Made by a program: the position numbers and the translations under genes
The notes under the pieces: model-generated
Databases searched by the model: none
Told to the model about the DNA's origin: nothing
What the model saw: only the letters and a program-made list of their open reading frames with translations
In this document: positions 27,795-28,846 of the stretch, in pieces
Numbering within the stretch: position 1 is the first letter of the stretch
How the letters are laid out: every line of letters begins with the position of its first letter
Source of the DNA: a virus
Virus record (IMG/VR): IMGVR_UViG_3300009373_000023
Location: 1-32,691 of that record
Length of the DNA stretch: 32,691 bases
Direction: 5' to 3' (one strand)

Positions 27795-27964
27795 ACAGTC
27801 GGTGTTGCCTCCCGACTGGCATTCGACCTCCTTTCTTTTCTACTGAGGCCGGTGGCAGAAGCGGACTTATCCAACCTTCTTAACTACCGGCCTCCCTCGT
27901 TTATCCCCACCCTATTGACTTACTGTTTTCTTTTGCTATAATTATATTAAGGGAAGGTTGGATA
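27795..27964 (+). ncRNA. Structured leader RNA upstream of the methyltransferase
   Basis: The transcript from P1 would carry a 5' hairpin (CAGTCGG 27796-27802 with CCGACTG 27812-27818) and a second one with a perfect 9-bp stem (GAGGCCGGT 27845-27853 with ACCGGCCTC 27886-27894) and 32-base loop. The loop contains TTATCCAACCTTC (27867-27879), fully complementary to GAAGGTTGGATAA (27953-27965) over the methyltransferase SD and first base of its ATG. This could hide the ribosome site in the P1 message only. The interval may also serve as packaging site for the adjacent small terminase. Confidence 0.45.
27915..27942 (+). promoter_or_regulatory. Plus-strand promoter P2 for the methyltransferase
   Basis: TTGACT (27915-27920), 16-bp spacer, TATAAT (27937-27942) with TG one base before the -10: an almost ideal extended -10 sigma70 promoter. 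The start near 27949 would give a message that begins at the SD and lacks the complementary upstream arm. Confidence 0.8.
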
Positions 27965-28846
27965 ATGCTAACTCACGTTAGTCTCTTCTCCGGTATCGGG
28001 GGCATTGATATTGCAGCACACCAAGCAGGTTTCAAGACTGTCTGCTTTGTCGAGATTGACCCCTTCTGCCAAAAAATCCTCAACAAACACTGGCCAAACG
28101 TACCCATAATAGGAGACATAAGAGATGTCAAAGGAACAGAATTTGGAGCAGTTACCCTTGTTACAGGGGGATTCCCTTGCCAGCCTTTCAGTCAAGCCGG
28201 GAAGCGAAGAGGCAAGGAAGATGACCGCTACCTCTGGGGTGAAATGTTTAGGGTCATCAGAGAACTTAAGCCCACTTGGGTTGTTGCAGAAAACGTTGCT
28301 GGAATCATCAATATGGAACTCGACAATTGTCTATCTGACCTGGTACACGAAGGCTTTGAAATCCAAACGTTTCTTATACCAGCTTGTGCCGTCAATGCCC
28401 CCCACAGACGAGATAGAATCTTCATTGTGGGCTACTCCAAACACGCTCGATTGCATGAACCCGAAGTCGGAAGTAGCATTGGAAAAGGAGAGTTGCAAGA
28501 ATGTTCCATCGAATCGTCTATTAGGCAGGGAAGTCCACCTATGGCCGACACCGCAGGAGAGGGATTACAGAACAGGAGAAGGTCATCGTTGGGAGAACAC
28601 AGAAGAAAGAAGCCGGAACCTAACGGATGCAATAGCACATTCAGAGAATTACAAGATGGTGCCGGAATCAGAACCTTATCCGGGTGGTGGGCAACTGAAC
28701 CCGAATTGGGTAGAGTGGCTAATGGGATTCCCAATAGGGTGGACAGACTTAAATGTCTAGGTAATGCCGTAGTTCCTCAACAAATATACCCCATCCTTAA
28801 AACTATCGCCAATATCGAGAACTCTCTGGACTCCTCATCGTTTTGA
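27965..28846 (+). CDS. DNA C5-cytosine methyltransferase
   Basis: 293 aa. Motif I FSGIGG at 8-13, motif IV PCQPFSQAG at 71-79 with catalytic Cys72, motif VI ENV at 109-111, motif VIII HRRDRIF at 147-153, motif X LGNAVVPQ at 265-272. The variable target-recognition part (about 160-240) is short and of low complexity, so the recognised site cannot be predicted. It moves a methyl group from SAM to C5 of cytosine. No restriction enzyme is adjacent, so it is a solitary phage enzyme, probably to protect the genome or adjust gene expression. A second ORF of 211 codons overlaps it in the +1 frame. SD-like GGGAAGG lies seven bases upstream of the ATG. Confidence 0.95.
   Translation: MLTHVSLFSGIGGIDIAAHQAGFKTVCFVEIDPFCQKILNKHWPNVPIIGDIRDVKGTEFGAVTLVTGGFPCQPFSQAGKRRGKEDDRYLWGEMFRVIRELKPTWVVAENVAGIINMELDNCLSDLVHEGFEIQTFLIPACAVNAPHRRDRIFIVGYSKHARLHEPEVGSSIGKGELQECSIESSIRQGSPPMADTAGEGLQNRRRSSLGEHRRKKPEPNGCNSTFRELQDGAGIRTLSGWWATEPELGRVANGIPNRVDRLKCLGNAVVPQQIYPILKTIANIENSLDSSSF
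28125..28760 (+). CDS. Overlapping +1-frame ORF inside the methyltransferase gene
   Basis: 211 aa, fully inside the methyltransferase gene in its +1 frame (codons 54-265 of that gene). Its ATG follows AGGAGA with eight bases between, better than the SD of the host gene. The product has features I recall from separately annotated phage proteins next to cytosine methyltransferases: LLQKTLLESSIWNSTIVYLT near 53, LWATP near 101, LWPTP near 139 and LNPNWVEWLMGFPIGWTDL at 191-209. A 212-codon open frame is unlikely by chance. However, conserved residues of the methyltransferase force part of this sequence (the last motif lies opposite TEPELGRVANGIPNRVDRL), so expression is not proven. Confidence 0.5.
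   Translation: MSKEQNLEQLPLLQGDSLASLSVKPGSEEARKMTATSGVKCLGSSENLSPLGLLQKTLLESSIWNSTIVYLTWYTKALKSKRFLYQLVPSMPPTDEIESSLWATPNTLDCMNPKSEVALEKESCKNVPSNRLLGREVHLWPTPQERDYRTGEGHRWENTEERSRNLTDAIAHSENYKMVPESEPYPGGGQLNPNWVEWLMGFPIGWTDLNV

Follow-up and report, generated by a model that had tools for sequence, protein, structure and literature searches.

The methyltransferase locus and its second reading frame

The window, meaning the whole stretch of DNA that was analysed, is a virus record of 32,691 bases whose minus-strand proteins include both terminase subunits. On the plus strand, positions 27965–28846 hold an open reading frame (ORF) of 293 amino acids, here called alpha, that encodes the large chain of a C5-cytosine DNA methyltransferase with motifs I–VIII and X and is assigned to the PHROGs family phrog_363. 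Downstream of alpha lie a plus-strand regulator and a DnaD-like helicase loader. A putative sigma-70-like promoter picked out by a consensus scan only (TTGACT, 16 bases, TATAAT; 27915–27942, plus strand; 11 of 12 matches, with TG before the second hexamer) ends 22 bases upstream of alpha.

Alpha belongs to the C5-cytosine DNA methyltransferases: it matches PF00145 (4.8e-47), over amino acids 3–169 only. In the PDB, M.HaeIII (4e-22) and M.HhaI align to amino acids 3–163, through motif VIII, and then weakly at motif X. Translation and alignment with these two enzymes place motif IV, GGFPCQPFS, which holds the catalytic cysteine, at 28166–28192 and motif VIII, PHRRDRIFIVG, at 28400–28432; both are doubly coded. 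From about amino acid 159 to 240 (28439–28684), alpha is a spacer that has no recognisable motif, and the beta frame of the same bases is the variable region. Motif X, LKCLGNAVVPQQIYPIL, was assigned at 28748–28798 by weak alignment to motif X of M.HaeIII.

The second ORF, here called beta, lies wholly within alpha on the same strand at 28125–28760, with its ATG at 28125, its stop codon at 28758–28760 and an offset of +1 to alpha. It encodes 211 amino acids and is a candidate small subunit contributing the target-recognition part and motif IX. An earlier note on this DNA had described a 211-codon +1-frame ORF inside the methyltransferase gene, an AGGAGA eight bases from its ATG, and the motifs LWPTP and LNPNWVEWLMGFPIGWTDL. 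All are present: the Shine-Dalgarno (SD)-like AGGAGA occupies 28111–28116, LWPTP lies within the spacer at 28539–28553 in the beta frame, and LNPNWVEWLMGFPIGWTDL forms the C-terminal end of beta. No Pfam or NCBIfam model matches beta. In PHROGs the chains already form two separate families, phrog_363 (alpha) and phrog_1008 (beta), each labelled DNA methyltransferase; phrog_1008 matches the window beta at 1e-32 and is also the family matched by 52 of 52 homologues.

Evidence for dual coding

Evidence that the +1 frame is open beyond chance came from a null model in which synonymous codons were shuffled while the alpha protein and its codon usage were kept. In the window, the longest +1 run is 212 codons against a shuffle mean of 82, and none of 500 shuffles reached 212; the +2 frame is ordinary (54 versus 47). 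The same pattern was found in 86 non-redundant alpha genes, where the +1 run has a median of 245 codons (range 158–375) versus about 100 expected, with p < 0.01 in 85 of the 86, and the +2 frame does not depart from expectation (median 52 versus 54). In the single-chain control, E. coli dcm, the +1 frame is unremarkable (88 versus 104, p = 0.78). Loci retrieved with beta would bias a test of openness, so the N-terminal 160 amino acids of alpha were also used as a query. In all 79 new loci found in this way, the +1 run reaches 150 codons or more; this query still overlaps the first half of beta, but the openness runs well beyond it.

Constraint at the protein level was measured from the distribution of substitutions over codon positions. 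At an offset of +1, the third codon position of alpha is the second of beta, and the first position of alpha is the third, or wobble, position of beta. Among 32 independent pairs, the share of differences falling on alpha third positions is 0.57 in the N-terminal and 0.53 in the C-terminal non-overlapping part, versus 0.47 in the overlapping core of motifs IV–VIII, 0.32 in the spacer and 0.30 in the motif IX region. The drop is significant in the core (Wilcoxon, 7e-7) and in the spacer and motif IX region (2e-9), paired over the 29 pairs with enough differences. In the spacer, amino acid identity is 0.40 for beta and 0.30 for alpha, although the alignment was built on alpha. In the motif IX region, alpha position 1, which is the beta wobble position, takes 46% of substitutions and position 3 takes 30%, and beta is at least as well conserved as alpha. 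An SD match of at least five bases also precedes the beta start in 26 of 64 relatives (41%), whereas control sites taken from these genes show one in 6%.

These data agree with the proposal of the earlier note that both frames are used and that the target-recognition region is doubly constrained, as seen in the falling third-position share across the overlap. That note had named frequent +1-frame stop codons in relatives and normal synonymous variability in the overlap as signs against dual coding; such stops are not frequent, and the variability is not normal, as the reduced third-position share indicates. It had also argued against itself that the final motif of the second frame might only mirror conserved methylase residues, an objection that does not hold, given that substitutions there fall mainly on the beta wobble position and that beta conservation at least equals that of alpha. 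The note had explained the low-complexity target region by double constraint; the low complexity of the alpha spacer would fit a constraint exerted mainly by beta.

Overlapping frames cannot avoid mirroring some of the conserved residues of alpha, and the +1 ORF could on that ground be regarded as arising from codon conservation in alpha and from base composition, with no protein made. This explanation is hardly credible, as it is contradicted by the synonymous-shuffle null, the +2 and dcm controls, the shift in codon positions, the SD enrichment and the better conservation of the spacer in beta than in alpha. The data instead indicate that the stretch really is dual coding, with two proteins specified in two reading frames.

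Motif IX is probably carried by the second frame

No motif IX can be recognised in alpha in the stretch from motif VIII to motif X. A pattern search of the 79 loci retrieved with alpha likewise found no motif IX in the alpha frame, save in two loci whose frames are rotated (see below). The beta sequence of the window contains LNPNWVEWLMGFPIGW, which behaves like the motif that alpha lacks. The bases concerned, 28695–28751, read LNPNWVEWLMGFPIGWTDL in beta and PELGRVANGIPNRVDRL in alpha. The alpha element EPxxGRVAxGIPNRVDRL and beta motif IX share their bases in the window; in some relatives (L020, L039 and L040), the element appears at the alpha C-terminus as a separate stretch after motif IX, as though by duplication or merging of the segment.

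Support for assigning motif IX to beta came from phrog_116, a methyltransferase profile. When beta motif IX was joined to alpha motif X, the piece matched this profile with 27.4 bits (447–493), with IX and X in order and adjacent, versus 14.8 bits (465–493, motif X only) for alpha's own C-terminus. At a second locus the scores were 22.1 bits for the joined piece and 12.2 bits for the alpha C-terminus, and the full virtual chain of the window scored 207.5 versus 192.5 for alpha. A profile of the joined IX and X segment was also compared with the PDB. Its only matches, at a sub-threshold E of 0.086, were to the plant C5 methyltransferase DRM, across that protein's own IX–X junction; the control, a profile of the contiguous alpha C-terminus, found no methyltransferase. 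Pfam did not recognise isolated IX and X pieces of 50–60 amino acids. On a joined alpha-beta-alpha chain, the Pfam match gained slightly (profile 2–197 versus 2–169), and a phmmer search with that chain did not extend the match into the variable region.

Structure prediction spoke neither for nor against this assignment. AlphaFold modelled beta alone poorly (pLDDT 61), a Foldseek search with this low-confidence model gave no useful fold match, and a beta profile gave only chance matches in the PDB. In a chimera of alpha 1–158 and beta 106–211, the core was predicted with confidence and resembles C5 methyltransferases (Z about 15), but the small domain was not.

Additional evidence came from the placement of motif IX across 279 complete non-redundant loci. 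It lies in beta in 252, in alpha in five and in a third frame in five, and was not detected in 17; no locus has it in both chains. In five staggered loci (L250, L251, L254, L260 and L272), alpha stops after motif VIII, and an overlapping beta carries both IX and X. These staggered loci also have a second EP..RVA.G...R element between beta motifs IX and X. In a further locus, L274, IX and X stand in line in alpha, and the N-terminal part of beta is still nested. That persistence rules L274 out as a single-chain ancestor and marks it as a frame-swapped variant. Motifs IX and X thus change chains, as would be expected if both chains form one enzyme.

Beta might instead be a real but separate regulator or accessory factor, such as an inhibitor or activator of the methylase, and not a structural half of the enzyme. 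The reading-frame evidence by itself is silent on the role of beta, and the lack of a Pfam domain in beta would suit such a factor. This alternative is nevertheless unlikely: alpha lacks motif IX, the IX-like motif of beta restores the profile match, IX never occurs in both chains of one locus while IX and X can change chains, and a set of 80 genome loci yielded no stand-alone beta. The earlier note had suggested that the second protein might be a regulator or partner of the methylase; the partner fits these data, and the regulator finds no support in them.

A frameshift is another way in which the two frames could be combined. The +1 frame of beta takes up the normal motif order where motif VIII ends, and a hypothetical chain joining alpha to beta gives a phrog_116 match that includes motif IX, so that programmed +1 frameshifting could in principle fuse alpha motifs I–VIII to the C-terminal part of beta in one polypeptide. 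Such an arrangement is very improbable, however, since beta has its own ATG and an enriched upstream SD, and its conserved N-terminal 100 residues, which overlap motifs IV–VIII, would be skipped. Moreover, motif X is back in the alpha frame in most loci, and a complete chain would therefore require two shifts. The arrangement favoured here, with two separately initiated chains, most likely includes a feature that the earlier note overlooked: the second ORF appears to supply the methyltransferase motif IX that alpha lacks.

Comparison with known methyltransferases

M.HaeIII, M.HhaI and E. coli Dcm share the catalytic core, motifs I–VIII and motif X with the window enzyme, but each is one chain. 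The closest parallel is M.EcoHK31I, an E. coli enzyme that recognises YGGCCR. Lee, Kam and Shaw are said to have described in 1995 that its beta gene lies inside the alpha gene in the other frame. The phage genome K1ind1 has a nested ORF called "Mte8-like" that is homologous to the window beta (4.4e-23), and Mte8 is the database mnemonic of M.EcoHK31I. The likeness between M.EcoHK31I and the window pair is drawn from its motif layout and the reported nesting, with the K1ind1 ORF as an indirect link.

M.EcoHK31I consists of two polypeptides, the larger with motifs I–VIII and X and the smaller with motif IX (PMC3404938), which is the same split as in the window. They differ in that the window pair is a phage gene, beside which no restriction enzyme was noticed, and in that the target-recognition part is placed in beta for the window, whereas the predicted target-recognition domain of M.EcoHK31I is placed in alpha (PMC3404938). 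M.AquI, which recognises CYCGRG, is a C5 methyltransferase likewise split after motif VIII into two chains, but its small chain holds both IX and X (PMC3404938), whereas motif X of the window lies in the alpha frame. The window pair is therefore not of the M.AquI kind, and the M.AquI layout is instead shared by the five staggered relatives described above. With motifs I–VIII and X in alpha, and IX in a nested beta, the window fits the M.EcoHK31I kind.

Across a large family, the two frames stay open and are constrained at the protein level. No motif IX is detectable in alpha, and the beta motif restores the IX–X order. The two frames very probably encode the subunits of a split C5-cytosine methyltransferase of the M.EcoHK31I type, as read from the sequences of the window and its relatives.

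Distribution of the nested pair

The nested +1 layout was present in all 88 other loci of the first retrieval and in all 79 new loci retrieved with the alpha N-terminus, and the offset of beta is +1 in all 323 loci where both N-terminal profiles match. A tblastn search with beta matched 205 IMG/VR stretches (80 kept) and 248 GTDB genome stretches (80 kept). Full-length relatives were found in phages of Paenibacillus, Lacticaseibacillus, Salmonella and others, and also in plasmid records; the GTDB matches include Bacillota, several proteobacterial classes, Acidobacteria, Bacteroidetes, Planctomycetes and Verrucomicrobia. All 80 bacterial-genome loci are nested at offset +1, and three have one frame broken. 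Alpha is broken and beta intact in L172 and L196, and the reverse holds in L243. One uncultured Roseovarius chromosome (OX638333.1) has at least five widely separated loci with matching scores (L218, L219, L220, L222 and L223).

Annotation of these loci is uneven. The Paenibacillus larvae phages Bloom and Lily (g62/g63, "g62 internal gene") and K1ind1 (ORF29/ORF28, "Mte8-like protein") have the same nested layout with a homologous beta and are annotated with two overlapping genes, the Bloom and Lily beta being distant from that of the window (36–38% identical). Only one gene is annotated in N15 (gene 58) and C72C1. No description of the nested arrangement was found in the phage literature, in a search of open-licence papers only, which is weak evidence of absence. 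This kind of split methyltransferase was already known, but how widely it occurs (in 323 of 323 testable loci and across many bacterial phyla) seems to have gone unrecognised. By these sequence comparisons, the nested layout is far commoner in phages and prophages than annotation indicates.

Candidate slippage tracts in relatives

In ten loci (L096, L097, L124, L127, L135, L142, L244, L256, L332 and L335), frames 1 and 0, where motifs IX and X otherwise lie, are exchanged for frames 2 and 1 or for frames 0 and 2. Each of these ten frame-rotated loci has a repeat tract, defined as a run of at least nine G or at least seven AG units, in the doubly coded spacer between motifs VIII and IX (G9–G12 or (AG)7–11), versus four of 201 in-register loci (Fisher, 2.6e-14). 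Tract-bearing loci are distributed over the three registers as 4 : 6 : 4. In one pair, L097:2975 (G12, rotated) and L098:611 (G11, in register), which share 94% identity over 1,097 bases, a single G is the only net difference in length, and it puts both frames into another register. No such tract occurs in the window copy.

These data suggest that slippage in the tract produces phase variation in the rotated relatives, shifting both subunits at once; the main caveat is assembly error in the tracts. Two further loci, L133:3223 with (AC)10 and L273:2922 with (AC)6, place motif X in the third frame, and a motif IX was not recognised in either. They possibly carry the same switch with another repeat unit. 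We lean, by a modest margin, towards a broader proposal that concerns the relatives and not the window copy: that nested two-subunit methyltransferases are a large and old family of overlapping genes in phages and prophages with one phase-variable branch, in which a G or dinucleotide tract in the spacer slips and both downstream halves move together through three registers, one alone giving alpha motif X and beta motif IX.

Proposed mechanism and significance

In the proposed mechanism for the window, a single promoter, to judge from its consensus, would drive alpha, and ribosomes would also initiate at the internal ATG to produce beta separately, as the SD conservation suggests. Alpha would give the AdoMet site, the catalytic cysteine (core motifs I–VIII) and motif X. 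Beta would give motif IX, by sequence, and probably target recognition, by its position and variability. The two chains would assemble as a heterodimer into one enzyme predicted to methylate cytosine at a specific site, and this methylation would most likely protect the phage DNA from host restriction, as the family suggests.

To our knowledge, long same-strand arrangements of a gene within a gene have rarely been demonstrated in prokaryotes. This family is large enough for double constraint to be measured directly and for motifs IX and X to be tracked between chains. In many phage records, a single gene is annotated at a locus that would require two, so that studies of expression or specificity with alpha alone would be expected to fail. 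If the phase-variation proposal is true, the tract in the relatives would be a single slippage switch acting on two subunits together.
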